64,000 nt of DNA, from assembly GCA_028291405.1 (NCBI GenBank), contig JAQGID010000235.1, positions 1-64,000 of the forward strand, given 5' to 3'. The DNA comes from Rhodospirillales bacterium. Its GTDB lineage: Bacteria; Pseudomonadota; Alphaproteobacteria; ATCC43930; CGMCC-115725. The translations under genes and the position numbers were made by a program. The first letter of the stretch is position 1, and every line of letters starts with the position of its first letter. Shown here piece after piece: positions 7,694 through 22,696 of this stretch. The notes beneath the pieces are model-generated. The model saw nothing but the letters and a program-made list of their open reading frames with translations. It was not told where the DNA came from and ran no database searches.

Positions 7694-9763
7694 ATGAGCC
7701 CCGCGCATCTGCGAGAGTTGAATCCCGAGCAGCGCAGGGCCGTCGAATATGGCGTCGGGCTTGCCGATGGCGCCATCGGCGGGCCGCTTCTCGTCATCGC
7801 CGGGGCAGGGTCGGGCAAGACCAACACGCTCGCGCATCGCGTCGCGCATCTCGTCGTCAGCGGCGTCGATCCGCGGCGCATCCTGCTGATGACCTTCTCG
7901 CGCCGCGCGGCGGCCGAGATGACGCGGCGGGTCGCGCGGATCTGCACGCAGGTGCTGGGGGCGAATGCCGGCGTCATGACTGATACGCTGGCCTGGGCCG
8001 GCACGTTTCACGGCATCGGCGCGCGGCTGCTGCGCGATTACGCCGAGCAGATCGGGCTCGATCCCGATTTCACGATCCACGATCGCGAGGATTCCGCCGA
8101 CCTCATCAATCTCGTGCGGCACGAGCTCGGGTTCTCGAAGACCGAGAGCCGCTTTCCCGCCAAGGGCACGTGCCTCGCGATCTATTCGCGCGCGGTGAAC
8201 GCCGAGCTGCCGCTCGATCGCGTGCTGATGGCTCACTATCCCTGGTGCGCCGTTTGGGAGGCGCAGCTGCGCCAGCTGTTCGCCACCTATGTCGAGGCCA
8301 AGCAGGCGCAGAACATCCTCGATTACGACGATCTGCTGCTCTACTGGGCGCGCACCGTCGGCGATCCGATGCTCGCCGAGGACATCGGCGGCAGGTTCGA
8401 CCACGTGCTGGTCGACGAGTACCAGGACACCAACCGCCTGCAGTCGGCGATCTTGCTGGCGCTGAAGCCGCAAGGGCGGGGACTCACCGTCGTCGGCGAC
8501 GATGCGCAGTCGATCTATTCCTTCCGCGCCGCCACCGTCCGCAACATCCTCGACTTTCCCGGCAGCTTCAGCCCCGCCGCCGAGATCGTCACCCTCGACC
8601 GCAACTACCGCTCGACGCAGCCGATCCTCGCGGCCGCCAACGGCGTCATCGAGCTTTCCGCCGAGCGCTTCACCAAGAACCTGTGGACCGAGCGCCTGTC
8701 GGCCGAGCGGCCGCGGCTGGTCAGCGTCCGCGACGAGACCGACCAGGCCGGCTATATCGTGGAGCAGGTGCTCGAAGGCCGCGAATGCGGCACGCCTTTG
8801 AAGCAACAGGCGGTGCTGTTCCGCACCTCGCATCACAGCGGCCCGCTCGAGGTCGAGCTGACGCGCCGCAACATTCCCTTCGTCAAGTTCGGCGGCCTCA
8901 AATTCCTCGACAGCGCGCATGTCAAGGACATGCTGGCGATGCTGCGCTTCGCGCAGAATCCGCGCGACCGAGTCGCGGGGTTTCGCCTTATGCTGCTGCT
9001 GCCGGGGGTGGGGCCCGCCTCGGCGCAGCGCGTCCTCGACGGGATGGCCGAGCAGCCGGATCCGCTCGCCGCGCTCACCGCGATCGCGCCGCCGCCGCGC
9101 GCCGGCGACAACTGGGTCGGCTTCGTCGAGACGCTGCAGCTTCTGCGCGCCGGAAAGTCCGGCTGGCCAGCCGAGATCGAGCATGCGCGCCGCTGGTACG
9201 AGCCGCATCTCGAGCGCATCCACGACGATGCGGCGATGCGCCAGCTCGATCTGCTGCAGCTCGAGCAGATCGCGACGGGCTATCCGTCGCGCGATCGCTT
9301 CCTGACCGAGCTGACGCTCGATCCGCCGGATGCCACCAGCGATCAGTCGGGCGTGCCGTTTCTCGACGAGGATTATTTGATCCTCTCGACCATCCATTCC
9401 GCCAAGGGGCAGGAGTGGAAATCGGTCTTCGTGCTCAACGTCGTCGACGGGTGCATCCCGTCCGATCTCGGGACCGGCACGACGGCGGAGATCGAGGAGG
9501 AGCGGCGGCTGCTCTATGTCGCGATGACGCGGGCGAAGGACAATCTGCATGTCGTCGTGCCGCAGCGCTTCTTCACGCACGGGCAGAATCCGCAGGGCGA
9601 CCGCCATGTCTATGCCTCGCGGAGCCGGTTCATTCCGGGGAGCCTGCTGCCGCATTTCGAATGCACGGCATGGCCGGCGGCTGCGGCGACGGTCGGCGCC
9701 GCTCCCGACGTCAGGCAGCGCCGGATCGACGTCGGGGCGCGGATGCGGGCGATGTGGCGGTGA
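7694..9763 (+). CDS. UvrD/PcrA/Rep-family ATP-dependent DNA helicase
   Basis: A superfamily 1A 3'-5' DNA helicase of 689 residues. The motifs occur in order: Walker A AGAGSGKTNTL near residue 36, motif Ia LLMTFSRRAAAEM, Walker B VDEYQDTN near 239, motif III GDDAQSIYSFRAA, motif IV RNYRSTQPIL, motif V STIHSAKGQEW near 565 and motif VI YVAMTRAKDNL near 608. ATG 7694 is preferred over upstream in-frame starts because GGAGA precedes it by 7 bp and the protein then begins with the usual LNPEQRRAVE motif. It lacks the long C-terminal tail of canonical UvrD, so it is probably an accessory paralogue. Its last 53 bp overlap alkB on the other strand. Confidence 0.92.
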   Translation: MSPAHLRELNPEQRRAVEYGVGLADGAIGGPLLVIAGAGSGKTNTLAHRVAHLVVSGVDPRRILLMTFSRRAAAEMTRRVARICTQVLGANAGVMTDTLAWAGTFHGIGARLLRDYAEQIGLDPDFTIHDREDSADLINLVRHELGFSKTESRFPAKGTCLAIYSRAVNAELPLDRVLMAHYPWCAVWEAQLRQLFATYVEAKQAQNILDYDDLLLYWARTVGDPMLAEDIGGRFDHVLVDEYQDTNRLQSAILLALKPQGRGLTVVGDDAQSIYSFRAATVRNILDFPGSFSPAAEIVTLDRNYRSTQPILAAANGVIELSAERFTKNLWTERLSAERPRLVSVRDETDQAGYIVEQVLEGRECGTPLKQQAVLFRTSHHSGPLEVELTRRNIPFVKFGGLKFLDSAHVKDMLAMLRFAQNPRDRVAGFRLMLLLPGVGPASAQRVLDGMAEQPDPLAALTAIAPPPRAGDNWVGFVETLQLLRAGKSGWPAEIEHARRWYEPHLERIHDDAAMRQLDLLQLEQIATGYPSRDRFLTELTLDPPDATSDQSGVPFLDEDYLILSTIHSAKGQEWKSVFVLNVVDGCIPSDLGTGTTAEIEEERRLLYVAMTRAKDNLHVVVPQRFFTHGQNPQGDRHVYASRSRFIPGSLLPHFECTAWPAAAATVGAAPDVRQRRIDVGARMRAMWR

Positions 9764-10358
9764 GCGAGCGTGCCTGACGCTCGTCCGCGGTGAAATTCCG
9801 AAAGGTCACCGAGTATCTGAGGGCATCGACGACCGGCAGGCTGTGCTCCCATTCGCGCCGCGCCGGGCCGCGCAGGAGATAGGCCGACCGCGGCTCGACG
9901 ATCCGGGAAAGACGATCCCAACCCGATCCCGCCTTGCGGCGGAAGCGCAGAACGCCGGGCGAGAGGAACGAGATGCCGATCACGTCCTCGAACATCGGCT
10001 TGTCGCGATGCCAGCCGATGCCGGCACCGGGCGCATATTCGGTGACGAGAATTTGCTGGAGCCCCGCGGGGTCGACACCGGCAAAGGCGGCGGCCTTCTC
10101 GCGCAACGGGAAGAAGAAGCTCGGTATCTCCTCGCTCTGCCGAAGCGCGCGGCCGGCGTAGTCATAGCGCCAGCCGAACGAGACGATCCGCCGCTTGCCG
10201 AGATAGCCGTGAAACTCGAAAGGCTGGAACGGCAGATCGGCGAAGCGCTCGACGAGCGCGCCCTCCTCGCTCTCGGCAATCAACTCGGCTCGGTAGGCGA
10301 AGCCGGGCGGCATCGTTCGCTCGGCGGCGAAAAGATCGGTCTGTTGCAGGCTGAGCAT
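9711..10358 (-). CDS. alkB: AlkB-family alpha-ketoglutarate-dependent dioxygenase
   Basis: An Fe(II)/2-oxoglutarate dioxygenase of 215 residues, of the type that oxidatively removes alkyl lesions from DNA or RNA bases. The iron triad is visible as HRD (GIGWHRDKP, residues about 117-119) and a later His in EHSLPVV near residue 168. The 2-oxoglutarate-binding arginines sit in LRYSVTFRNF. The N-terminal part (LPFQPFEFHGYLGKRRIVSFG) is typical of the small bacterial/ALKBH-like group. Its 3' end converges on and overlaps the helicase gene by 53 bp, so the extra C-terminal tail after RNFTADE is encoded antisense to the helicase. It begins 82 bp downstream of the carboxylase stop on the same strand. 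Confidence 0.9.
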   Translation of the reverse strand: MLSLQQTDLFAAERTMPPGFAYRAELIAESEEGALVERFADLPFQPFEFHGYLGKRRIVSFGWRYDYAGRALRQSEEIPSFFFPLREKAAAFAGVDPAGLQQILVTEYAPGAGIGWHRDKPMFEDVIGISFLSPGVLRFRRKAGSGWDRLSRIVEPRSAYLLRGPARREWEHSLPVVDALRYSVTFRNFTADERQARSLTATSPASAPRRRSGAA

Positions 10359-10440
10359 GGCGGCTATATCGCCCCGTGCGAGACGGCCTGCAAGATGTCG
10401 GGCCTAGGCTTTCTCCCCGGTCTTTAGCCCGCGCGGCGCG

Positions 10441-13400
10441 TCAGGCTTCCTCGATCAGCGCGACGATCTGGCCGGCCTTGACGACCCGGCCGGGCTGGAA
10501 GCGCAACTCGCGCACGGTGCCGCCGACCGGCGCGACGACGGCGATCTCCATCTTCATCGATTCCGTCACGACCAGGACCTGACCGGCGGTCACGGAGTCG
10601 CCGACCGCGACCTCGATCTTCCAGACGACGCCGGTCGTGGAGGCGTGCACGGGGCTGGTGCCTTCGGGCCAATTCTCCTCGGCCAAGGTGGAAGGGTCGA
10701 CGGCGTCGTCGGCGACATAGGTGTCGAGCCCCTGCTCGCGCCAGCGTTGCCGTTCGGCCTCGAAGGCTTGTTGCTGGCGCGACTTGGCGCCGGCGATCTC
10801 CGCCGCGTTCGCCGCGAGGAATTTCTCGTGCTCGCCCAGCGTGAAGCGGCTCTCCTCGATGCGCAGCGGATAGAGTCCGTGCGGGAAGGCCGCGCGCGCC
10901 TCGACGAGCTCGTCGCCGGAGACGGGAAAGAAGCGGATTTGGTCGAAGAACCGCAGCAGCCAGGGCTGCTCGAAGCAATCCGTCTTCCGCCAGCGATTCC
11001 ACATCTGGATGGTGCGGCCGAACAGCTGATAGCCGCCCGGACCCTCCATGCCGTAGACGCAGAGATAGGCGCCGCCGATGCCGACGGCGTTCTCCGGCGT
11101 CCAGGTGCGCGCCGGATTGTACTTGGTGGTGACCAGCCGGTGGCGCGGATCGAGCGGCGTCGCCACCGGGGCACCGAGATAGACGTCGCCGAGGCCGAGG
11201 ACGAGGTAGCTCGCGTCGAAGACGATGCGTCTGACGTCGTCCTCGCTGTCGAGCCCGTTGATGCGGCGGATGAACTCGATGTTCGACGGGCACCAGGGCG
11301 CGTTCGGACGCACCAGCTCGGCATATTTCCGCATGGCGAGCTGCGCCTGCTCGTCGTTCCAGGACAGCGGCAGATGCACGATGCGGCTGTCGATGGAAAC
11401 CGAGCGGGGATCCGGGAGCTCGCTTTCCAGCGCGACGAGCGTGTCGAGCAGGCGGCGCTGCGAGAGGATGCGGCTGTCGTAATGAATTTGCAGCGAGCGA
11501 ATCCCCGGCGTCAGGTCGATGATCGCCGGCAGCTTCGCGACGTGCACGCTCTGCATCAGCAGGTGCACGCGGACGCGCAACGCGATGTCGAGGACCATCG
11601 CGCCGTATTCGACGAGCAGGTAATCGTCGCCGGCGGCGCGATACGCGACCTCGACCGCGCGATCGAGACTGCGAAGGACGTCGCCCTGCGGAACCGCGCC
11701 GGAAAAGACGATCGGCGCCGCCTGGCGAAGCGCCACCGCCTGCTCCGGCGTCATCGCGCGGAAGCGGAGCCTGTCGCCGGGCTTCAGCTGGCCGAGCTTC
11801 CAGAGTTCGCCGCTCGCCACCACCGCCGGACACACGAAGCCGCCGAGACTCGGACCGTCGGGGCCGAGGATGATCGGCATGTCGCCGGTGAAATCGATGG
11901 CACCGACGGCATAGGCATTGTCGTGGATGTTGGACGGGTGCAGCCCCGCCTCGCCGCCGTCGGCCCGCGCCCATTGCGGCCGCGGCCCGATCAGGCGGAC
12001 GCCGGTGCGGGCGCTGTTGAAATGGATCTCGTATTCGTCCGCGAAGAGGGCGACGATATCGGCCTCGGTGAAGAAGTCGGGAGCGCCGTGCGGGCCGTAG
12101 AGCACGCCGATCTCCCAGCGGTCGGTCAAGGGCGGCAGGTCTTCGGGCAGCGTTGCCATTGCCGGCGCGGCGGGCTCGCTGCTGATGCGCAGCGTGTCGC
12201 CGGCCTTGAGGACGCCGGTCGCATGGCCGCCGAAGCCGCCAAGCGAGAAGGTCGAGCGCGAGCCGAGATAGAGCGGCGCATCGAAACCGCCGCGCACCCC
12301 GAGATATGTCCGCATCCCCGGCCCGGCGATTCGGCCGAGCGCCAGCACCTGACCGGGCTTGACGCCGATCGGCTGCCAATATGGGATTGGCACGCCGTCG
12401 AGCGTCGCGGTCATGATCGCGCCGCCCAGCGCGATCGTGGCGTCGCTGAGGAAGCGCAGGCTCGGCCCCATCAGGGTGCATTCGAGCACGGCGCAGCGCT
12501 CGTCGTTGCCGAGGACGCGGTTGACGATCCGGTGCGAGCGCTCGTCCATCGGACCGCTGGGCGGGATGCCGACATCCCAATAGCCGAGCCGACCCGGAAA
12601 ATCCTGCAGGCTCGATTGCGCGCCGGGCGCCAGCACCTCGAGGCTGCGCGAGCGGAAGGCGAAGTCCTTGAGCGTCGCGGTCGTGGCGGTGCCGGAGCGA
12701 AATCCATCGCCGCGCAGGATCTGCGACAGATAGGCGAGATTCGTCTCGACGCCCCAGACGCTGGTCTCGTCGAGCGCGTTCGTCATCTTCGCGAGCGCGT
12801 CGCGCCGGTCTCGGCCATGCACGATGATCTTGGCGAGCATGGGATCGTAGAACGGCGATACCTCGGCGCCGGTCTCGATCCAGCTTTCGACGCGCGCCTG
12901 GGCCGGCATCGCGAGCGCGGTGATGACGCCGGTCGAGGGGCGGAAATCCTGCGCCGGATTCTCGGCATAGAGGCGCGTCTCGATCGCATGGCCGCGCGCC
13001 ACCAGCTGCTCCTGCGGCGGCAGCGCGAATTCGCCGGCCGCCTGCCGCACCATCCATTCGACGAGGTCGACGCCGAAGACTTCCTCCGTCACCGGATGCT
13101 CGACCTGCAGGCGCGTGTTGACCTCGAGGAAATACGGCTCCTGACGCGCGACGTCGTAGACGAACTCGACGGTCCCCGCGGATTCGTAGCCGACCGCCCG
13201 CCCCAGCGCGATGGCGGCGCGGCGCAGCCGGTCGCGCATCGCCTCGCTCAAGTTGGGCGCCGGGGTTTCCTCGACGACTTTCTGGTTGCGCCGCTGCAGC
13301 GAGCAATCGCGCTCGCCGAGCGCGACGACTCCGCCCTTGCCGTCGCCGAAGATCTGCACCTCGATGTGGCGCGCCTGCGCGACGAAGCGTTCGAGGTAGA

Positions 13401-13986
13401 GCCGGGCATCGCCGAAATTGCCGGAGGCCAACCGTGCTACGCCGTCGTAGCGCTGTGACAGCTCCTCCGGGGTGCGGCAGAGCTGCATGCCGATGCCGCC
13501 GCCGCCCGCCGTGCTCTTCAGCATGACGGGGTATCCGATGCGGGCGGCTTCGACGAGCGCCTGCGCCCCGTTCTCGAGCAATCCGCTGCCAGGCAGCAGT
13601 GGCACGCCGGACTGTGCCGCGATCTCACGCGCCGTATGCTTCAGGCCGAAGGCGCGGATATGGTCGGGGCGCGGCCCGATGAAGACGATGTTCTCGGCGG
13701 CGAGGCGCTCGGCGAAGCCGATGTTCTCCGAAAGGAATCCGTAGCCGGGGTGCACCGCCTGTGCGCCGGTCGCGCGGCAGGCGGCGATGATCTTGTCGAC
13801 GTCGAGATAGGTTTCCGCCGCGGCGCCGGCGCCCAGCCGCACCAAGCGGTCGGCGCTGCGCATCGGCGCGGTGAAGCGGTCGGCGTCCGACGCGACGGCC
13901 ACCGCCTCGATGCCGAGGCGATGCAGCGTGCGAATGACGCGGGCTGCGATCTCGCCGCGGTTGGCAACCAGGACTGTCTTGAACAT
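10441..13986 (-). CDS. Urea/guanidine carboxylase (biotin-dependent)
   Basis: A biotin-dependent carboxylase of 1181 residues. The biotin carboxylase domain (about 1-450) starts KTVLVANRGEIAARVIRT and contains the ATP-grasp glycine loop STAGGGGIGM and EVNTRLQVEHPVTEE. The KipA/KipI-like carboxyltransferase domains follow (GRLGYWDVGIPPSGPMD; later KYNPARTWTPEN and GMEGPGGYQLFGRT). The C-terminal biotinyl domain has the attachment motif ESMKME near residue 1142. Enzymes of this layout carboxylate urea to allophanate, or guanidine to carboxyguanidine when they occur with UAAP1/UAAP2. The context favours guanidine or a related compound, but sequence alone does not settle it. The start at 13986 gives MFKTVLVANRG. 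It is the last gene of the operon, 8 bp after UAAP2. No allophanate hydrolase follows. Confidence 0.9.
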   Translation of the reverse strand: MFKTVLVANRGEIAARVIRTLHRLGIEAVAVASDADRFTAPMRSADRLVRLGAGAAAETYLDVDKIIAACRATGAQAVHPGYGFLSENIGFAERLAAENIVFIGPRPDHIRAFGLKHTAREIAAQSGVPLLPGSGLLENGAQALVEAARIGYPVMLKSTAGGGGIGMQLCRTPEELSQRYDGVARLASGNFGDARLYLERFVAQARHIEVQIFGDGKGGVVALGERDCSLQRRNQKVVEETPAPNLSEAMRDRLRRAAIALGRAVGYESAGTVEFVYDVARQEPYFLEVNTRLQVEHPVTEEVFGVDLVEWMVRQAAGEFALPPQEQLVARGHAIETRLYAENPAQDFRPSTGVITALAMPAQARVESWIETGAEVSPFYDPMLAKIIVHGRDRRDALAKMTNALDETSVWGVETNLAYLSQILRGDGFRSGTATTATLKDFAFRSRSLEVLAPGAQSSLQDFPGRLGYWDVGIPPSGPMDERSHRIVNRVLGNDERCAVLECTLMGPSLRFLSDATIALGGAIMTATLDGVPIPYWQPIGVKPGQVLALGRIAGPGMRTYLGVRGGFDAPLYLGSRSTFSLGGFGGHATGVLKAGDTLRISSEPAAPAMATLPEDLPPLTDRWEIGVLYGPHGAPDFFTEADIVALFADEYEIHFNSARTGVRLIGPRPQWARADGGEAGLHPSNIHDNAYAVGAIDFTGDMPIILGPDGPSLGGFVCPAVVASGELWKLGQLKPGDRLRFRAMTPEQAVALRQAAPIVFSGAVPQGDVLRSLDRAVEVAYRAAGDDYLLVEYGAMVLDIALRVRVHLLMQSVHVAKLPAIIDLTPGIRSLQIHYDSRILSQRRLLDTLVALESELPDPRSVSIDSRIVHLPLSWNDEQAQLAMRKYAELVRPNAPWCPSNIEFIRRINGLDSEDDVRRIVFDASYLVLGLGDVYLGAPVATPLDPRHRLVTTKYNPARTWTPENAVGIGGAYLCVYGMEGPGGYQLFGRTIQMWNRWRKTDCFEQPWLLRFFDQIRFFPVSGDELVEARAAFPHGLYPLRIEESRFTLGEHEKFLAANAAEIAGAKSRQQQAFEAERQRWREQGLDTYVADDAVDPSTLAEENWPEGTSPVHASTTGVVWKIEVAVGDSVTAGQVLVVTESMKMEIAVVAPVGGTVRELRFQPGRVVKAGQIVALIEEA

Positions 13987-13994
13987 TGCCGCTC

Positions 13995-14639
13995 TTAGCT
14001 GTCGGGCGCGTCCCAGATGAGGACTCGGATCGGCGTCGGGTCGAAGCCGTTGCAGGGATTGTTGACCTGCGGGCAATTCGAGATGACGCAGAGCACATCC
14101 ATCTCGGCGCGCAGCTCGACGTAGTCGCCCGGCTTGGACGCGCCATCGACGATCGCCAGCTCGCCGTCGGGCAGGATCGGGACGTTCATGAAGAAGTTGA
14201 TGTTGCTGACGATGTCGCGCTTGTCCATGCCGTGCCGCGCCAGCTCGACGAGGAAATTCTCGCGACAGGCGTGCATGTAGCGGGTGTGATGGCCGAACCG
14301 CACCGTGTTGGCCTCGCAGCTGCAGGCGCCCGCCGAGGTGTCGTGATCGCCGCTGGTATCGGCGGTCACGATCGCCATGACGTTGCCGTCGTTCGAGAGA
14401 AGCCGCGTTCCAGCGGTGACATAGGCGGAGCCTTGCGCCGCCACGGTGTCCTGGGCGCTGTAGCGCTCGATCAATTTGTCGGCGCGATAGAGCAGCGTGT
14501 CGACCGCCTGCTGGCCCTCGAGGTCGACGATGCGCAGGGATTGTCCCTTGCGGACGAGGCCGGACCAGGGCGTGCGGGCCGGAACGACGTGGTCGTAGAC
14601 AGCCTCAGTAGGATCGAGCGGAGAGGTTGCGATCGTCAT
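13995..14639 (-). CDS. Urea carboxylase-associated protein 2 (UAAP2; carboxyguanidine deiminase subunit CgdB-like)
   Basis: A DUF1989-type protein of 214 residues. The core GQSLRIVDLEGQQAVDTLLY, the cysteine/histidine run DHDTSAGACSCEANTVRFGHHT and the ending CPQVNNPCNG are typical of UAAP2. In guanidine-using bacteria the UAAP1/UAAP2 pair was shown to form a heteromeric carboxyguanidine deiminase that converts the carboxylase product to allophanate. The ATG at 14639 is chosen because it overlaps the UAAP1 stop by 4 bp and removes a poorly conserved 30-residue extension. The ACSC and HH residues could form a metal site. It is placed between UAAP1 and the carboxylase in an unbroken operon. Confidence 0.85.
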   Translation of the reverse strand: MTIATSPLDPTEAVYDHVVPARTPWSGLVRKGQSLRIVDLEGQQAVDTLLYRADKLIERYSAQDTVAAQGSAYVTAGTRLLSNDGNVMAIVTADTSGDHDTSAGACSCEANTVRFGHHTRYMHACRENFLVELARHGMDKRDIVSNINFFMNVPILPDGELAIVDGASKPGDYVELRAEMDVLCVISNCPQVNNPCNGFDPTPIRVLIWDAPDS

Positions 14640-15448
14640 GGCCGGCCTGCCGTATTCTCGAAGGCGCGCACGGCTTCTTCCGTCGCCGTGCGACAGAGAT
14701 CGTCCGCGGCTGCTTGCGGAGAGCGCCACAGAATGGCGCGGACCGGCTCCGCGCTCCAGTCCGGCGCGGGGCTGAGGGGATGGGGACAGTTGGAGAGCGC
14801 GACGATGAGGTCCATCTCGGCGCGCAGGTCGATATAGTCGCCCGGCTTCACGGTGCCGTCGCGCCAGACGAGCTTGCCTTTCTCGTCGGTGCCGACCGGC
14901 ACGAAGAAGCTGATGCAGGGGCCGACGTCGCGCACGGTCATGCCGTGTTTCGCGGCCGCCAGGATGAAATTCTCATGCGAGTTGCGGCGCGTCGGGCTGA
15001 CGCCGTATTTGCGCGCGTCGCTGCTCCGCGTGCTGGCGCCGGCGACGCAATCGTGCTGGCCGCAGGTGTCGTCGGTGATCGAAGCGATGACGCGCCCCAT
15101 GTCGGAGAGCAACAGCTTGCCGCGCGCCAGCCGCGCGGTCCATTGCACCTTGACCGAATCCGCGGGGTTGAAGCGCTCGCTCGTGTCGTCGGCGTTCCAG
15201 AACAGCGCTGCGACGCCATGCGTCGCATGGTCGTTGACGAGGCGCAGACTTTGCCCGCGAATCATCCGGCATGTCCAGTACCAGCCGGCCGGGATCTCCT
15301 CCTCGTGCTCGATCAGGGCGGCAGGCAGCGTCTGGGGATTGGCCGCGTGGCTCGCCGCCGGGCGGCTGGAATTGACCGATTGCGCGCGCGCCTTCAGCTC
15401 GAAATAGCGGCGGCGGTATTCCTCGGGCGTTGCAAGCGTCTCGCTCAT
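14636..15448 (-). CDS. Urea carboxylase-associated protein 1 (UAAP1; carboxyguanidine deiminase subunit CgdA-like)
   Basis: A DUF1989-type protein of 270 residues, paralogous to UAAP2. It starts MSETLATPEEYRRRYFELKA, has the core GQSLRLVNDHATHGVAALFW, the TDDTCGQHDCVAGAST segment and CPHPLSP near the end. The Cys/His spacing parallels that of UAAP2, and both contain PGDYIDLRAEMD or a near copy of it. Family knowledge assigns the UAAP1/UAAP2 complex to removal of ammonia from carboxyguanidine. It overlaps the NikR-like gene by 4 bp upstream and UAAP2 by 4 bp downstream, so three genes are translationally coupled. Confidence 0.85.
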   Translation of the reverse strand: MSETLATPEEYRRRYFELKARAQSVNSSRPAASHAANPQTLPAALIEHEEEIPAGWYWTCRMIRGQSLRLVNDHATHGVAALFWNADDTSERFNPADSVKVQWTARLARGKLLLSDMGRVIASITDDTCGQHDCVAGASTRSSDARKYGVSPTRRNSHENFILAAAKHGMTVRDVGPCISFFVPVGTDEKGKLVWRDGTVKPGDYIDLRAEMDLIVALSNCPHPLSPAPDWSAEPVRAILWRSPQAAADDLCRTATEEAVRAFENTAGRP

Positions 15449-15930
15449 CCTGGCCTCCGGGCTTTGTCGTCGTCCTGGCGAAACGGATGAAGCTGGGGAA
15501 TCAGCGCCGCGATCAGATGCATCTTGCCGGAGATGACGCCGCGCCGCGACGTCATCTCGTCGGCGATCACGCGCAGCTTATGCGCCGGCCCTTGCACCAG
15601 GATGACCTCCATCGTCTGATTATGCATGAGATGGACGTGCAGCGAGCTGATGACCTCGTCGATGTAGCGAAACTGCAGATCGGCGAGCTGCTTCTGCAGA
15701 CCGGAGGCGGAATTGTCGTAGAACAGCGTCACGACGCCGACCATGACGTCCTCGCCGAGATTGCTTTTGTGCTCGACCAGCGACTGGTAGAGCATGTCGC
15801 CGATCGCGTGGGACCGGCTGCCGAAGCCGCGCTCCTCGACCATGCGGTCGAGGTCGCACAACAGGCTCTCGGGCAGCGACATGCTGATCCGCGAGACCTG
15901 TTTGCTGTTGCCACGCACATGCGTGCTCAT
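15445..15930 (-). CDS. NikR-family ribbon-helix-helix regulator with altered metal site
   Basis: A 161-residue repressor-like protein. Residues about 11-55 form the ribbon-helix-helix DNA-binding arm (QVSRISMSLPESLLCDLDRM). The rest is a NikR-type ACT-like metal-binding domain with SSLHVHLMHNQTMEVI and VIADEMTSRRGVISGKMHL. In characterised NikR, nickel is held by His76, His87, His89 and Cys95 (E. coli numbering). Here the aligned positions are Phe87, His98, His100 and Thr106, so half the ligands are lost while spacing is kept. It is therefore unlikely to bind Ni(II) in the usual way and may sense another metal or a small molecule. The start at 15930 lies 14 bp after the glutamine-synthetase-like gene and the stop overlaps UAAP1. 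It is the likely regulator of this operon (see 21021-21048). Confidence 0.85.
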   Translation of the reverse strand: MSTHVRGNSKQVSRISMSLPESLLCDLDRMVEERGFGSRSHAIGDMLYQSLVEHKSNLGEDVMVGVVTLFYDNSASGLQKQLADLQFRYIDEVISSLHVHLMHNQTMEVILVQGPAHKLRVIADEMTSRRGVISGKMHLIAALIPQLHPFRQDDDKARRPG

Positions 15931-15944
15931 CGTTTTCTCCCGAC

Positions 15945-17306
15945 CTAGAACAGGCTGCTGTATCGCTCGATCTCCCATTTGCTGACCGACAGATGATAGG
16001 ATTCCCATTCCATCGTCTTGTACTTGATGAACTCGTCGCGCAGCGCCTTGCCCAGCGTCGCCTCGACCAGCGGGTCGGCGGCGAAGGCCGCGACGGCCTC
16101 CTGCAGCGTCTGCGGCAGGAACTCGATGCCGCGATCGCGTCGCTCGGCGTCGGTCATCTCGTAGAGATTGTCCTCGTTCGGCTTGCCGGGGTCGATCTTG
16201 TTCCGGATGCCGTCGAGACCAGCCGCCAGCGCCAGCGTCGCCGCGAGATAAGGGTTCACCGCGCCGTCGGCGTTGCGCGACTCGCAGCGGCCGCCGCCGG
16301 CCGGGACGCGCACCGAATTGGTGCGATTGTTCGAGCCGTAGGAATTGAACACCGGCGCCCACGAGAAATTGCTCATCGCGCCGCGCCGCACCAGACGCTT
16401 GTAGCTGTTGACCGTCGGCGCGAAGGCGGCGCAGAGCGCGCGGCCGTGCTTGAGAATGCCGCCGATGAAATGATAGCCGGTCTCGGTCAGCCCGATGCCG
16501 CGCGGATCCTCGGACGGCGAGCAGGCGAAGGCGTTGGCGCCGCTCTTCAGATCGTAGAGCGACATGTTGAAATGCGCCCCGGTGCCGGTCTTGTCGGCAA
16601 AGGGCTTCGGCATCATCGTCGCGTGCAGCCCCTGCTCGCGGGCATAGTGTTTGGCCATATAGCGGAAGAAGATGAAGCGGTCGCACATGGTGAGCGCGTC
16701 GGCGTAGTTGAAGTCGAACTCGTACTGGCCGTTCGCGTCCTCGTGATCGAAGGAATAGAGATCCCAGCCGAGGTCGTTGATGCAGCTCGCGACCTTGTCG
16801 AGCCAGGTGAAATTGGCGAGGAAGCCGCGTACGTCGTAGCAGGGCTTGACGAGCGTGTCCTCGGGGTCGGGCACCGAGAGCGAGCCGTCGGCATTCTGCT
16901 TGAGGAGGTAGATCTCGCATTCGATGCCGAGGTTGAGGCCGAAGCCGAGCTCGCCGGCCTGCGCCAGCACGTTCTTCAGCGCGACGCGGGTGTTCAGTGG
17001 ATAGGGCTTGCCCTGGAACATGTTGTCGGCGGGCATCCAGGCGACCTTGGGCTCCCACGGCAGCTGGATGATGTGGTCGAGATCGGGGACCGAGGTGATC
17101 TCGTCGTCGTTCGGCTCCTGCCCGAGACCGTCCAGCGCATAGCCGGTATAGCGTTCGGAGCCATGCGCCATATGGGCGAGATGCGACAGCGGCACGACCT
17201 TAGCCTTCGGCACCCCGTGGATGTCGACATAGGCGCCGATGCAATACTTTACCCCGCGGTCGCGCAGGCTGTGCTCGACCTCAGAGATTTTTTCCTGTGT
17301 GTACAT
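15945..17306 (-). CDS. Type III glutamine synthetase-like ligase (GlnT/GmaS group)
   Basis: A 453-residue member of the glutamine synthetase superfamily: beta-grasp N-terminus ([20 protein letters not shown]), metal-binding [21 protein letters not shown], the GAHFNMSL segment and [11 protein letters not shown], which corresponds to the ATP/glutamate-binding region. This subgroup is usually annotated type III glutamate-ammonia ligase. It also contains gamma-glutamylmethylamide synthetases and other gamma-glutamyl-amine ligases, so the acceptor may be ammonia or an amine released from the imported substrate. It sits 31 bp after the creatininase-family gene and 14 bp before the NikR-like gene. 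Being embedded in a guanidino/urea operon, a role in capturing the liberated nitrogen is inferred. Confidence 0.85.
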
Positions 17307-17337
17307 CAGTCTCCGTCCTTGTTCGGGCGCATCGGCC

Positions 17338-18090
17338 TCAGGCGAAATACGAGTGATCGAGCGGCGGCGTTTCGGCGACGCCGCGCTGGATGAGGGAGGC
17401 GAGATCCTCCACCATCCAGGAGAACCAGAGCCGGCCGTTCTCGACGGTGGCCTTGCTCGGCGTCCCGGTGACGCCGTTGGTGCTCGTGCGGTTGACGGGA
17501 TGGGAGAAGACCAGCCCCTCGGTACGATCCGGATCGTCGGCGGTGGCGATCAGCGCCTCGCGCACCAGCTCGGGCGCCACCGCCAGCATCATCGAGGTCT
17601 CGGCGTCGTTGGCGTGCCAATCTTCGCCGTCGGAAAAATGCGCCGCCCGGACGCGTGGGCTCAATGTCGCGGAGTTGAACAGCGCGACCATCAGATCGTC
17701 GTGCTCGCTGCGCAGCATCTCGAGCGCACAGCGCAGCGGTGCGGCGTTGGTGACATGGGTGTTGACGATGAAGAGCCGGCGCACGCCGCTGTGATAGGCC
17801 CAGTCGCCGATGTCCTTGACGAAATTGATCAGCGTGACCGGCTGCACCGCGAGCGTGCCGGCCCAGCGCCGGCTGTGGCCCAGCGAGCAGCCGTATGGGA
17901 GGGGCGGGAGCATCGGCACCTTCGTCCGCCTCGCGACCTCGGCGCACAGCCGGTCGGCGAGCACGGCATCGACGCCGGTGCCGAGGTGCGGACCGTGCTG
18001 CTCCGTCGCCCCGACCGGCAGGATCGCGGCATTGCCGACCTGCTGCAGATCGTGCGGAAGCTCCGCCCAGCTGCGCTCCGACCAGATCAT
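17338..18090 (-). CDS. Creatininase-family amidohydrolase
   Basis: A 250-residue protein of the creatininase/formamide-hydrolase-like family. [20 protein letters not shown] supplies the expected metal ligands Glu30, His32 and Asp41. NTHVTN (about residue 110) corresponds to the NGHGGN or NGHYEN motif and keeps only the His. [12 protein letters not shown] carries a further acidic ligand. Known members hydrolyse creatinine, cyclic amides or formamides. The altered NTHVTN motif suggests a different substrate. It follows the ABC ATPase gene by 9 bp and precedes the synthetase gene by 31 bp. The inferred job is to open or trim the imported nitrogen compound before carboxylation. Confidence 0.85.
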
Positions 18091-18099
18091 CGTGCCTGC

Positions 18100-19017
18100 C
18101 TATTCGACATTATCGGCGACGTCTGTAAGGCGCGCGACTGCCGGGTAGCTCTCGAGCTCGTCGTCGCCGGTCGATTGATGGATGAGCTCCTCCAGCCGCC
18201 CCTTGGTCGCGAGAAACTCGGGGGTGATGCATTGCATCAGCGCGCGCGGACGCGGCACCGGCACCTCGATCAGCTCCTGGACGCGGCCAGGATGCGGCGA
18301 CAGGACGAGGATGCGGTCGCCGAGAAAGATCGCCTCGTCGAGATCGTGGGTGATGAAGATGATCGTGATGTCGATCTTCTTCCAGATTTCCAGGAGATAG
18401 GCCTGCATGCGCGCCCGCGTCTGCGCGTCGAGCGCGCCGAAGGGCTCGTCCATCAGCAGGATGCGGGGCTGGTTGGCGAGCGCCCGGACGATCGCGGCAC
18501 GCTGCTTCATCCCGCCGGAGAGCTGGTGCGGGTAGGCTTCGGCGAATTTCTCGAGGCCGACGAGCTGCAGCCATTGCAGGGCCTCGCGCTCTGCGGTGGA
18601 TGCGCCGGTCCCGTTGACCTCGAGGCCGAACATCACGTTCTTCTTCACCGTCAGCCAGGGAAAGAGCGTGTAGCCCTGGAACACCATGCCGCGGTCGCGC
18701 CCCGGCCCGGAGACCGGCTTGTCCTGCAGCAGGACCTGGCCGGAGGTCTTTTCCTCGAGCCCGGCGAGGATCCGGATGAGGGTGGATTTGCCGCAGCCCG
18801 AGGGGCCGACGACGCAGAGGAACTCGCGCCGCTGCGTCGAGAAATTGATGTCGTCGAGCGCCACCGTCGTGCCGCTCGCCGACTTGAAGGTCTTGCCGAG
18901 ATGCTCGACCTCGAGGATGGTCTCACGCGACTTCATCCGGTCGAAGCGGGCGCGGACGGCGTCGGACTGATCGAGATAGGAGGGCAGGGTGGCCGCTGTC
19001 GCGGCGGGATGGTTCAT
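18100..19017 (-). CDS. ABC transporter ATP-binding protein (NitT/TauT type)
   Basis: A 305-residue ATPase of the nitrate/sulfonate/taurine importer class. Walker [10 protein letters not shown] is at residues 71-79, the Q-loop in [11 protein letters not shown], the signature LSGGMKQR, Walker [13 protein letters not shown] and the switch His in FITHDLDEA. It carries about 35 extra residues before the usual start (EVEHLGKTF) and a C-terminal extension rich in acidic residues. The next gene upstream is the permease (9 bp) and the one downstream the creatininase-family gene (9 bp). TauB/SsuB-like importers next to urea/guanidine carboxylases are a recurring arrangement. Confidence 0.92.
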
Positions 19018-19026
19018 CGCCTGCCC

Positions 19027-19986
19027 TCAGCCGGTCTTGGCAAGGGAGCGATCCCACGGGAACAGGCGCCGGCTGAGCTGCGCCAGGATCATGTCGGTCC
19101 CGAGACCGAGAATGCCGATCATGATGATCGCAGCGTAGACGTTGGGGAAATGCTGGTAGCGGGCCTGTTGCGTGATGAACCAGGTGATGCCGCTGGTCGT
19201 GCCGATCAGCTCGGCGACGATGAGATAGGTCCAGGCCCAGCCGAGCAGGATGCGCTGATCGCGATAGAGGTCCGGCAGGATCGCGGGAAGCACGACGCGG
19301 CGGAGCAGCTGCGAATTCTTGGTGCCGAGCGTCAGCGCCGCCTCGACCAGCGCGATGTCCAGCTTGCGGGTTGTATTGGCGATGATGAGGATCTGCTGAA
19401 ACAACGTGCCGATGACGATGATCGTGATCTTGGGCCCGTCGTAGATGCCGAGGATCGCGACCGCCAGCGCGCCGAACGCCGGCGCGGGCAGGTAGCGGAA
19501 GAACTCGGTGAAGGGCTCGAACAGCCGGGCGATGGCGGCATAGGTGCCGCAGAGGACGCCGAGCGGCACGCCGATGATCGACGAGATCACGAAGCCCCAG
19601 AAGATGATCTTGATGCTGTGCCACAGGCTCTGGTGCAGCCAGACGCCGTCCTGGGTCGGCGGCGGCGTCGTGAACGAACGGTAGAAGGCTGTCGCGACCT
19701 CGTCGGGCGACGGCAAGTAGATCGGGTTCGAGGCAATGCCTTGCGGCGGCGCGCGGTCCTCGGCCTTGGCATCGGCGACCTCGGCATCGAAGGCCGCGCG
19801 GTCCATCCGCATCTCGACCTGCAGATAGTCGGCCGAACCCGGATCGGTGATGAGGACCTGCGGGTGCCAGACCGCCGGGACGTAGCTCACGATGCTCCAC
19901 AGCGCGATCGGCAGGACGAACGACATGACGCCGATCGAGAGCCTTGCACGCTGCGAGAGAGCGCGGTGAAGCTGGAACAGTTTCAT
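19027..19986 (-). CDS. ABC transporter permease (NitT/TauT type)
   Basis: An inner-membrane permease of 319 residues. A first helix near residues 17-40 (SIGVMSFVLPIALWSIVSYV) is followed by a long periplasmic loop of about 75 residues (ITDPGSADYLQVEMRMDRAAF and onwards). The BPD-transport core then contains IIFWGFVISSIIGVPLGV, the cytoplasmic ATPase-contact loop around ALTLGTKNSQLLRRVVLPAILPDL and LGWAWTYLIVAEL. The large N-terminal periplasmic insertion is longer than in SsuC/TauC and may be specific to the urea-carboxylase-linked permeases. It lies between the binding-protein gene (25 bp) and the ATPase gene (9 bp). Confidence 0.9.
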   Translation of the reverse strand: MKLFQLHRALSQRARLSIGVMSFVLPIALWSIVSYVPAVWHPQVLITDPGSADYLQVEMRMDRAAFDAEVADAKAEDRAPPQGIASNPIYLPSPDEVATAFYRSFTTPPPTQDGVWLHQSLWHSIKIIFWGFVISSIIGVPLGVLCGTYAAIARLFEPFTEFFRYLPAPAFGALAVAILGIYDGPKITIIVIGTLFQQILIIANTTRKLDIALVEAALTLGTKNSQLLRRVVLPAILPDLYRDQRILLGWAWTYLIVAELIGTTSGITWFITQQARYQHFPNVYAAIIMIGILGLGTDMILAQLSRRLFPWDRSLAKTG

Positions 19987-20011
19987 CGTGAGCTACGCCC
20001 GGCGCCCGGCG

Positions 20012-21001
20012 CTACTTCAGGGCTGCGTCGGTTACCGACCCGTCGATCGCCGCGTTGATGTCCTGCGGCTCCTTGTAGACGTCGTTGGCGACGTTGAAGT
20101 CGTCGGCGATCTTCGACGAGCCGTAGAGCGACGTCAGCCCCTCGGCCTTGCCGAAGGTCTTCTTGCCGTCCGCGAGGCCAATGAGATGCGTCCCTTGCAG
20201 CAGCGGCTTGTAGGCGGCGGGGGTCAGGCCGACGCGCGCCGACATGATCTTGACGGCATCGTCCTGGGTCTTCGGATCGTTGATGTAAGAGACGACGTGA
20301 TCCCACACCTTGGCGAGCTTCACGTAGTCGGCGCGATGCGCGTTGAGGCTCGTCGGCGAGGCGTAGAGGACGTCATAGATCAGCCCCGGCGCCTTGGCCG
20401 AGGTGTAGATCGGACGCGATCCCGGCAGGCCCTTGATCGCCTGCCCCGAGACCGGCTGCCAGGCGCCGATGGCGTCGACCTGGCCAGAGGCCAGCACCTG
20501 CGGCGTGTCGTTGGTCTTGGCGTTGACCAGGGTCACGTCCTTCTCGCTCATGCCGACGCTCTTCAAGCCGTTGAGCAGCAGGAGGTGCTCGACGAGGCCG
20601 GTCTCGATCCCGATCTTCTTGCCCTTGAGGTCCTGCAGCGTCTTGATGCCCGGCTTGCCGACGATCATGTCGTTGCCGTTCGAGTAGTCGGTCAGCATGA
20701 TCATGACGCCCTTGGCGCCGCCCGAGCCGGTGACGAGCGCGTCGCCGTTGGTGACGCAATCGGCGTCGATCTTGCCGGCGGCGAAGGCGTCCATCGACGC
20801 CGAATAGTCGAACCACTGGAAATTCACGTCGATGCCGGCCTGTTTCAGCCAGCCCTTGTCGATGGCGACCTGCCAGGCGACCCAGCCCGGCCAATCGCTG
20901 TAGCCGATCGTCAGCGGAGCGGCCGCGGCCGGCTGCGTGACGGCAAATACGCCCGACAGAATTAAGCCGAAGGTGACACCGAGACTTAATTTGCGATGCA
21001 T
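20012..21001 (-). CDS. ABC transporter substrate-binding protein, urea-carboxylase-region type
   Basis: A periplasmic binding protein of 329 residues. The signal peptide ends near PAAAA (about residue 27), and the mature protein starts PLTIGYSDWPGWVAWQVAID. DVNFQWFDYSASMDAFAAGKIDADCVTNGD and KKIGIETGLVEHLLLL are typical of the NrtA/SsuA/TauA superfamily, and in particular of the subgroup encoded beside urea carboxylases. The ATG at 21001 is chosen because GGAGAGG lies about 6 bp upstream and it gives a normal signal peptide; an upstream in-frame extension would have none. It is the first gene of the nine-gene operon, preceded by a palindromic operator. The ligand is inferred to be guanidine, urea or a related amide. 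Confidence 0.9.
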   Translation of the reverse strand: MHRKLSLGVTFGLILSGVFAVTQPAAAAPLTIGYSDWPGWVAWQVAIDKGWLKQAGIDVNFQWFDYSASMDAFAAGKIDADCVTNGDALVTGSGGAKGVMIMLTDYSNGNDMIVGKPGIKTLQDLKGKKIGIETGLVEHLLLLNGLKSVGMSEKDVTLVNAKTNDTPQVLASGQVDAIGAWQPVSGQAIKGLPGSRPIYTSAKAPGLIYDVLYASPTSLNAHRADYVKLAKVWDHVVSYINDPKTQDDAVKIMSARVGLTPAAYKPLLQGTHLIGLADGKKTFGKAEGLTSLYGSSKIADDFNVANDVYKEPQDINAAIDGSVTDAALK

Positions 21002-21020
21002 CGCGCCTCTCCGATCCTGA

Positions 21021-21048
21021 GTATTACGAAATCCATAAAACGTAATAC
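21021..21048 (-). promoter_or_regulatory. 28-bp palindromic operator with NikR-type geometry
   Basis: GTATTACG (21021-21028) and CGTAATAC (21041-21048) are perfect 8-bp inverted arms separated by 12 AT-rich bases, 20 bp before the binding-protein start. Written as GTATTA-N16-TAATAC, the length and spacing are the same as the E. coli NikR operator GTATGA-N16-TCATAC. The most probable ligand is the NikR-like protein of the same operon, which would repress transcription here. Confidence 0.7.
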
Positions 21049-21088
21049 CGGGATGCAACGGGCGTGCCAGTCCGGAACGTTCGGGGGA

Positions 21089-21114
21089 GGCGCCGCCGTT
21101 CCGGCGGAAGCGCC
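21089..21114 (-). other. G+C-rich hairpin between propeller gene and ABC operon
   Basis: GGCGC (21089-21093) pairs with GCGCC (21110-21114), and CGCCG (21094-21098) with CGGCG (21102-21106), giving a 10-bp interrupted stem. No T-run follows on the minus strand. It may end transcription from the propeller gene or lie in the leader of the ABC operon. The 225-bp gap from 21002 to 21226 otherwise holds the operator and no gene. Confidence 0.4.
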
Positions 21115-21226
21115 GCGTTCGAGACGCCGGCACCGCGCGCAGTTGCTCACGAACCGGGCGACCCGATGCGCGGCAGCCTATTTCGCGATCACCGGTTGCG
21201 GCGGCGTCGGACAAGGAGGCTGGTGG

Positions 21227-22696
21227 TCACTCCGCCTGGATCTGGACGGGTGCGCCGTGCTGCTGCGGCGTGCCGGGGGCGATCACCAGATAGCGGCGTT
21301 CGGACTTGTCCTCGCCGCGCACCAGCTGGCGGATCGGGCCGATCGCGTTGACGATGGCGGATCCGGCGGGATTCGTCACGAAGCCCGATAATGGCTCGAG
21401 GCCCCCGGTGCCGTTCGCCTCGCGGGACAGGGCGAGGACGTAAGGCTGCTTCGGCGCGAGGCCGGTGGCGGAGGCTTGCAGCACTTGCAGGAGCCCCTGG
21501 TCGAAGAGCGAGATGCTGGTGGGCGCCGCGGCGACCTTCGCATGCTTGTCGCCCTTGAGCGGCGCCAGCGTGAGGTGCGCGACCTGCCCGGCAATTCCGA
21601 GCGGCTGCAGCCCTTGCATGCCGTCGCCCTCGGGAACCGCGCCGGGGACGTAGTTGACGGCCTGCGCCGCCTGCCCGATCGGGATGGTCGCGACGACCTT
21701 GTTGGCGAGCGTATCGATCCCAGCAAGCTTGTCCTCGTTCTCGAGGCCGACATAGATCCGCGTGCCGTCGCCGGACGGCCAGATGCCGTGCGGCAGCTTG
21801 CCGACCGGAATCGTCGCGACCTTGGCGAAGTCGTCGGTGCGGAACACCTGCACCTGATTGAGGCCGCCGACCGTGACATAGGCGAAATTGCCGTTCGCGT
21901 TGTGCACGAGGTTGACGTGGTTGGTAATCGGTCCCGTGTCGAGCGTCTTCAGGATCGCGAACGGCGGATTTGCGTCGAACACCTGGGTCTTGCCGGTATC
22001 CTTCAAGGTGAACCAGACCTGCTTGCCGTCCGGCGTCGCCGCGATGTTCGGGCAGAAGGGGCTTGCCTGCGGCACCCGCCCGACGATCTGGTGATCCGCG
22101 ACGGTGATCACGACGGTCTCGGGATTGAAGGACGAGCAGACGTAGCCGTATTTTCCGTCGGGCGAGAAGATCTGCATTCCGGGACCGCCCGGCACGATGA
22201 TACGGGTCTTTTCCTCATAGGTGGAGCCATCGAGAACCGAGACGTAGTTCTCGCCGCGCACCGTCACCCAGACCTCCTTGCCGTCCGGCGTGAAGAACGC
22301 CTCGTGCGGCGAGCGCCCGACGTAGGTCACGTGCTTTACCGCATTGGTCGGCGTATCGATGAAGGTCACCGAGTTCGAGCCGATCGAGACCACGGCGATG
22401 GTCCGATGGTCGGGCGAGAAGCCCATGCCGTGAACCAGTAGCTGGCCGCGGTAGAGCGGGCTGAAATTGCCCGGCGCCGGATCGCCCAGCCGGATGACGC
22501 CGAGCAGCTTGTTGTCGGCTGGATCGGTGACGGAAACGGTATTCGAGAATTGCTCCGCCGCGTAGACGCGGTCGTGATGGCTAAGCGGGAAATCCGGGTC
22601 GGACGCCGCCCCGGGCGCCTGCCCGGCCCCGGCGGGTTGAGCGGCCGACAAGGCCGTCGCGGCGAGCAATGCCATGAAGAAGCGCGCCCGATTCAT
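21227..22696 (-). CDS. Secreted YVTN-type beta-propeller protein
   Basis: A 489-residue exported protein with a signal peptide ending near AGAGQA. It contains repeated propeller blades of the YncE/40-residue YVTN type: VYAAEQFSNTVSVTDPADNKLLGVI, IGSNSVTFIDTPTNAV, VWVTVRGENYVSVLDGSTYEE, FAYVTVGGLNQVQVFRTDD and IYVGLENEDKLAGIDTLANKVV. The last 130 residues form a different, non-propeller domain. Such proteins often bind DNA, peptidoglycan or metals, and some accompany c-type dehydrogenases. It starts 1 bp after the DUF305 gene stop, so the two are an operon and may act together at the cell surface. Confidence 0.85.
   Translation of the reverse strand: MNRARFFMALLAATALSAAQPAGAGQAPGAASDPDFPLSHHDRVYAAEQFSNTVSVTDPADNKLLGVIRLGDPAPGNFSPLYRGQLLVHGMGFSPDHRTIAVVSIGSNSVTFIDTPTNAVKHVTYVGRSPHEAFFTPDGKEVWVTVRGENYVSVLDGSTYEEKTRIIVPGGPGMQIFSPDGKYGYVCSSFNPETVVITVADHQIVGRVPQASPFCPNIAATPDGKQVWFTLKDTGKTQVFDANPPFAILKTLDTGPITNHVNLVHNANGNFAYVTVGGLNQVQVFRTDDFAKVATIPVGKLPHGIWPSGDGTRIYVGLENEDKLAGIDTLANKVVATIPIGQAAQAVNYVPGAVPEGDGMQGLQPLGIAGQVAHLTLAPLKGDKHAKVAAAPTSISLFDQGLLQVLQASATGLAPKQPYVLALSREANGTGGLEPLSGFVTNPAGSAIVNAIGPIRQLVRGEDKSERRYLVIAPGTPQQHGAPVQIQAE

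Follow-up and report, generated by a model that had tools for sequence, protein, structure and literature searches.

The regulators of the NikR family have been defined on the basis of a His3Cys high-affinity nickel site (His76, His87, His89, and Cys95 in the numbering of E. coli NikR); their C-terminal domain is ACT-like, and residue E30 of the DNA-binding domain corresponds to a second metal/K+ site. The sites recognized by canonical NikRs are inverted repeats, i.e., GTATGAT-[N13/14]-ATCATAC in enterobacteria and GTGTTAC-[N13/14]-GTAACAC in deltaproteobacteria (PMC545781). All sensors of guanidine described to date are RNA riboswitches, hence the interest in the signal read by the protein described below; according to a 2025 review, protein guanidine sensors are still to be found (PMC12186494). 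An (incomplete) search of the literature retrieved neither a protein of this kind nor any connection between NikR and guanidine, creatininase, or UAAP genes.

The window analysed here is the whole stretch of 64,000 nucleotides (64 kb) from a Rhodospirillales bacterium. It harbors an operon (Table 1) whose nine genes belong to one transcription unit, with gaps of at most 31 bp and two 4-bp overlaps, the sixth of them encoding a variant NikR; the clade of these variants is hereinafter referred to as NikR*. The open reading frame begins with ATG and ends with TGA, and its product possesses both the ribbon-helix-helix (RHH) DNA-binding domain and the NikR_C domain of NikR, as judged from sequence and fold. 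The Pfam model NikR_C (PF08753) is matched at 86.5 bits (cut-off 22) and the NCBIfam model PRK04460, "nickel-responsive transcriptional regulator NikR", at 116 bits (cut-off 105); the best matches among PDB sequences are all NikR, the nearest being that of P. horikoshii (2bj1, E 1e-28). The AlphaFold2 model displays the RHH followed by the beta-alpha-beta-beta-alpha-beta order, and its C-terminal domain superposes on nickel-bound NikR domains at 1.2 A over 78 columns (1q5y_C) and 1.5 A over 83 columns (2y3y_A); the top 50 matches of a PDB fold search with this structure are all NikR. This monomer is modest (mean pLDDT 71.5), contains no tetramer pocket, and was used for fold assignment only. 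No second NikR_C protein was found in the genome of the window.

Table 1. Position of the regulatory elements and genes of the operon in the window, in the direction of transcription.
Feature	Coordinates	Strand	Basis
Sigma-54 (RpoN) promoter TGGCACGCCCGTTGCA, 10/10 scored consensus bases	21054..21069	minus	Consensus scan
Predicted NikR* operator GTATTAC-N14-GTAATAC, 14/14	21021..21048		Dyad search and genome scan
ABC transporter substrate-binding protein, NMT1/SsuA type (first gene)	20012..21001	minus	Family matches
ABC transporter permease	19027..19986	minus	Pfam match
ABC transporter ATPase	18100..19017	minus	Pfam match
Creatininase-family amidohydrolase	17338..18090	minus	Family matches
Type III glutamine synthetase-like ligase	15945..17306	minus	Nearest PDB entry: glutamate-methylamine ligase (9qur)
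NikR* (RHH + NikR_C/ACT-like regulator, 161 aa)	15445..15930	minus	Pfam, NCBIfam, PDB matches, alignment, predicted fold
UAAP1 (carboxyguanidine deiminase subunit family)	14636..15448	minus	NCBIfam match
UAAP2 (carboxyguanidine deiminase subunit family)	13995..14639	minus	NCBIfam match
Urea/guanidine carboxylase	10441..13986	minus	TIGR02712, 1802 bits

The alignment with E. coli NikR places Phe87, His98, His100, and Thr106 of the window protein at positions 76, 87, 89, and 95, respectively, exactly as an earlier note on this DNA had claimed. The ligand columns are free of gaps and the change is clade-wide, which rules out chance, a sequencing slip, an artefact, or a mis-alignment. In the clade, 33/33 rows have Thr or Ser at position 95, whereas it is Cys in all of the 43 canonical NikRs, which are H-H-H-C without exception (the divergent L077, neither canonical nor NikR*, was left out of this comparison); additional members from annotated records carry Ser, Ile, or Val, and Cys95 is absent from all 36 distinct relatives, belonging to Alpha-, Beta-, and Gammaproteobacteria. 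As for the conservation of Phe and Thr, a check proposed in the same note, Phe76 is not maintained among the relatives (Y, H, F, S, R, V, Q, A, and L are all seen), while Thr95 is maintained in part (Thr, Ser, Ile, Val). His76 is retained in nine NikR* members, most of which are H-H-H-T, and His89 in about three quarters of them; only His87, the sole ligand kept in all, and Gln75 are invariant. In the Acinetobacter members the four positions are Gln-His-Gln-Ile/Val, so that His87 is the only ligand left, and in an alpha subgroup they are x-H-F/V-S. In the DNA-binding domain, E30, conserved in 42/42 canonical rows, is replaced by Q/H in 32/32 clade rows, and R33, also present in 42/42 canonical rows, is lost in the clade. 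With F-H-H-T in the window and no Cys95 in any member, the canonical His3Cys square-planar nickel site is predicted to be unable to form in NikR*, in agreement with the earlier note. L077 and L171, two solitary members of the NikR family that do not belong to the clade, carry N-L-C-R and R-Q-P-Y at the ligand positions and represent independent losses.

The relatives of the window protein were retrieved by a scan of 85,000 species genomes, which yielded 27 true relatives sharing 55-73% identity with it (L029, a spurious hit, was excluded); L073, L075, and L076 were added through family searches, and further members (Acinetobacter, Novosphingobium, Asticcacaulis, and others) came from annotated records, four of whose loci were read. 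Since L031 and L032 apparently duplicate the contigs L005 and L008, the 38 rows correspond to 36 distinct records. In a tree constructed with the ligand columns removed, NikR* is monophyletic, with a support (94/58; 95% of 200 bootstrap trees) that is below maximal, the tree containing few alignment columns. The sister of the branch is the P. horikoshii NikR, and the clade lies apart from the sampled proteobacterial canonical NikRs. In the Novosphingobium resinovorum plasmid pSA1 (L139), two nikR* genes (9001-9438 and 12534-12983) are located on either side of one ABC transporter, with operator-like sites ahead of the ABC genes and ahead of the second nikR*.

The gene order of the window operon, that is, three ABC transporter genes, a creatininase-like gene, a type III glutamine synthetase (GS)-like gene, nikR*, UAAP1, UAAP2, and the carboxylase gene, is maintained in methylotrophs as well as in other Proteobacteria. 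The last three genes form one operon, with TIGR03425, TIGR03424, and TIGR02712 all matched above cut-off and gaps of at most 8 bp, and the stop codon of nikR* shares an ATGA overlap with the start codon of UAAP1; the location of the regulator within a UAAP1/UAAP2/urea carboxylase operon, proposed from the start, is thus correct. For the "urea/guanidine" pathway proposed together with it, guanidine is a better reading than urea, because guanidine riboswitches are found in the operons of many relatives. The substrate-binding protein matches TIGR03427, "putative urea ABC transporter", at a sub-threshold level. No allophanate hydrolase gene is located beside the window carboxylase gene; the only strong copy in the genome lies on a different contig (C101:25089-26768), where a urease alpha gene (C101:17291-17644) is located at a distance of about 7 kb, and the handling of urea and allophanate may be clustered on that contig.

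In most cassettes the creatininase and GS-like genes consistently lie between the ABC transporter and nikR*, with the GS-like gene directly before nikR*; an amine or a substituted guanidine may be their substrate. Both genes are absent from the distant members L079, L080, L139, and L140 and from two Methylophilaceae (L020 and L026), all of which retain the transporter, NikR*, UAAP1, UAAP2, and the carboxylase, and they are absent from L141 as well. A regulator dedicated to the GS and creatininase genes was accordingly rejected as the clade-wide role. UAAP1 is present in 11/12 of the NikR* genomes checked, most of them having no UAAP gene beside the cassette, vs. 30/299 sampled genomes (p about 6e-10); no association with UAAP1 was detected for canonical NikR (4/27, p 0.20). 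In L141, a plasmid of Acinetobacter sp. NCu2D-2 (8989-11249 and 12314-14540), nikR* is located next to atzF, a gene for an SMR transporter labelled as qacG-like resistance, and a 2OG-Fe(II) oxygenase gene preceded by a Gd-II-like twin hairpin. By annotation only, the transporter resembles the family of guanidinium exporters, and the oxygenase that of methylguanidine demethylases (PMC12508155), and this SMR protein is possibly a guanidinium exporter.

The putative operator was disclosed by an unbiased search of 24 loci, in which every perfect 5-bp dyad was listed within the 450 bp preceding the first ABC gene. Three overlapping dyads, found in 12, 10, and 8 of the 24 loci (at most 3 in shuffles), merge into the sequence GTATTAC-N14-GTAATAC. 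In the window this is the sole match with up to three mismatches in 64 kb (0.18 expected) and the sole perfect match in the 6.5-Mb genome; the weaker matches elsewhere in the genome are four, with two mismatches each, the same level as that of the reversed-pattern control. The genome's only strong site is therefore that of the guanidine operon, and not one at genes for nickel transport or nickel enzymes. At a score of at least 12/14, 22 matches were found in 27 cassette loci vs. none for the reversed pattern, and genome scans allowing one mismatch disclosed one or two sites in 10/11 genomes (none in G169). The A. baumannii record (4.1 Mb) contains exactly three sites with up to one mismatch, all of them at the guanidine locus, i.e., ahead of UAAP1, nikR*, and the ABC genes. 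No operator was found in the roughly 3.7 kb examined at UAAP1 loci of genomes without NikR*. The canonical NikR loci of the window's own relatives show GTATGA-N16-TCATAC, and the His3Cys ligands are kept there. In the window and its relatives, the predicted NikR* operator appears to preserve the 27-28 bp inverted-repeat geometry of NikR at the target promoter, with a variant half-site.

The operator is adjoined, on its upstream side, by the sigma-54 promoter TGGCACGCCCGTTGCA, located 52 bp before the start codon of the first operon gene and representing the only exact match to the -24/-12 element TGGCAC-N5-TTGC in the 64-kb window. An rpoN gene is present in the genome, and a sigma-70 promoter scan upstream of the window operon found none. 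An element scoring at least 8/10 is located 4-18 bp upstream of the operator at 20/21 main-clade sites (background, scores of at least 9 at 12/187,478 positions) and on the upstream side of two of the three A. baumannii sites; it was not found at the operator in the L079/L080/L139/L140 branch. Assuming the usual spacing, the start site expected for the window promoter falls in the left half of the operator, and this position implies repression by steric block.

Guanidine riboswitches share many of the NikR* loci, with Gd-II located before the carboxylase gene or Gd-I before UAAP1. In the window none was detected at the gathering threshold, nor at E up to 10 over positions 10000-21400, and, since no riboswitch is present there, NikR* appears to be the only visible specific regulator of the window operon. 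At Rfam gathering thresholds a riboswitch is present in 10/26 NikR* loci vs. 18/20 controls (p 0.0006); once the Gd-II-like twin hairpins disclosed in six more NikR* loci by a sub-threshold motif scan are included, the figures become 16/26 vs. 18/20 (p 0.04), and several riboswitch-free control loci also exist, so that the replacement of the riboswitch by NikR* is suggestive only. Twin ACGR hairpins of this kind, scoring below the Rfam gathering threshold, are located before UAAP1 or the carboxylase gene in L005 (~2000), L008 (~3231), L011 (~9905), L013 (~7873), and L023 (~12068); Rfam probably under-reports the guanidine-II riboswitch. The coexisting riboswitches support the assignment of the pathway to guanidine, but the signal read by NikR* may not be that read by the RNA.

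Taken as a whole, NikR* is probably a NikR-derived, nickel-independent local repressor of the sigma-54-driven uptake and breakdown of guanidine. Its predicted DNA-binding role and target operon are well supported by comparative genomics, and the re-purposing of the regulator, already suspected in the earlier note, agrees with the existence of a clade, an operator, and a regulon of its own. According to the mechanism proposed, a NikR-type dimer-of-dimers would bind the 28-bp dyad over the sigma-54 start site and would repress the operon for the import and breakdown of guanidine (or of a guanidino-compound), its own gene included; nitrogen starvation would activate the operon from sigma-54, presumably with NtrC, and a small molecule hosted in or near the former nickel pocket might relieve or set the repression.

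This molecule is guessed to be guanidine, an intermediate of the pathway, or a signal of nitrogen supply. The guess placed first is a guanidino compound or a product of the pathway, because the importer and the guanidine carboxylase pathway are the constant partners of NikR*; it is tentatively suggested that NikR* responds to guanidine, perhaps through the formerly square-planar nickel pocket, which would now accommodate a guanidino compound or the planar guanidinium ion. Guanidine sensing by NikR* would, against this reading, be partly redundant where riboswitches share the locus. The main alternative signal is nitrogen status: glutamine, 2-oxoglutarate, or a gamma-glutamyl amide from the GS-like enzyme might be sensed via the ACT-like domain in place of guanidine. 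The sigma-54 promoters, the GS-like gene directly preceding nikR* in most cassettes, the ACT-like character of the NikR C-terminal domain, and the GlnK-like and ammonium-transporter-like genes (named by eye from sequence) following the cassette in L019 and L022 are all in keeping with it. This alternative is nonetheless somewhat doubtful, given that the GS and creatininase genes are missing in seven members (L020, L026, L079, L080, L139, L140, and L141) and NikR* is constantly accompanied by the transporter and guanidine genes, and that sigma-54 could already provide nitrogen control.

A persisting response to a metal (weakly bound Ni, or Zn/Cu/Co/Mn), mediated by the His residues still present and perhaps also by the clade-specific H54 and H148, would match expression to the metal need of the creatininase or GS-like enzymes. 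The invariance of H87, the presence of H89 in most members, the near invariance of H54 and H148 in the main clade, and the several H-H-H-T members fit such a sensor, and weak or different metal binding is possible in the nine members retaining His76. It is, however, unlikely for the clade, since the Acinetobacter members (Q-H-Q-I/V) are also devoid of the equivalents of H89 and H148, and in these and in the alpha subgroup the operator and targets are unchanged and the creatininase and GS genes are absent altogether; the suggestion, made in the earlier note, of a re-purposing towards another metal is disfavoured clade-wide by the same Acinetobacter members, in which His87 alone accompanies the same operator and genes. 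Sensing of nickel itself is unlikely because ligands are missing in every member, and the operator and targets persist with only His87. It is very improbable that NikR* has remained a normal nickel NikR, its ligands relaxed and its regulon still nickel-linked, and that its place in this operon is incidental: the NCBIfam name and the urease of the window's genome favour it, but Cys95 and E30 are universally lost in the clade, the sole perfect genomic operator is that of the guanidine operon, the weaker sites being at control level, the taxonomically near canonical NikRs keep both their own operator and His3Cys, and canonical NikR lacks the association with UAAP1.

If guanidine-responsive, NikR* would be the first protein known to sense guanidine, and would exemplify the natural conversion of a metal sensor into a sensor of an organic ligand. 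Whatever its signal, it might represent, on the evidence of its sequences, a metal-sensing pocket without its metal in a protein whose DNA-binding role has been kept, and the "nickel-responsive regulator" annotations within its branch are probably wrong. It is also a concrete candidate, with a predicted operator, promoter, and regulon defined in several groups of bacteria, some of them culturable (methylotrophs and Acinetobacter), and this makes the question directly testable.

The comparison with the known systems can be drawn as follows. With the canonical NikRs of E. coli, H. pylori, and P. horikoshii, NikR* has in common the RHH plus NikR_C fold, an inverted-repeat operator of about 28 bp, and the role (predicted for NikR*) of repressor of a transport operon. 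It differs from them in the ligands, H-H-H-C being replaced (by F-H-H-T in the window) and E30 and R33 lost; in the operator, GTATTAC-N14-GTAATAC being predicted instead of GTATGAT-[N13/14]-ATCATAC; and in the target, which is not nickel transport but a guanidine operon preceded by a sigma-54 promoter. The deltaproteobacterial NikR sites, GTGTTAC-[N13/14]-GTAACAC, share with the NikR* operator the dyad geometry and the TTAC/GTAA half-site core, but their outer bases differ and they serve nickel transporters and hydrogenase (PMC545781). The guanidine riboswitches Gd-I and Gd-II control the same genes as NikR*, often at the same locus (PMC12508155, PMC12186494); they are, however, RNA sensors, whereas for NikR*, a protein, an action on the initiation of transcription is predicted. 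NikR* thus appears to belong with NikR by its fold and style of DNA binding, and to stand apart from it by its defining chemistry and its regulon.
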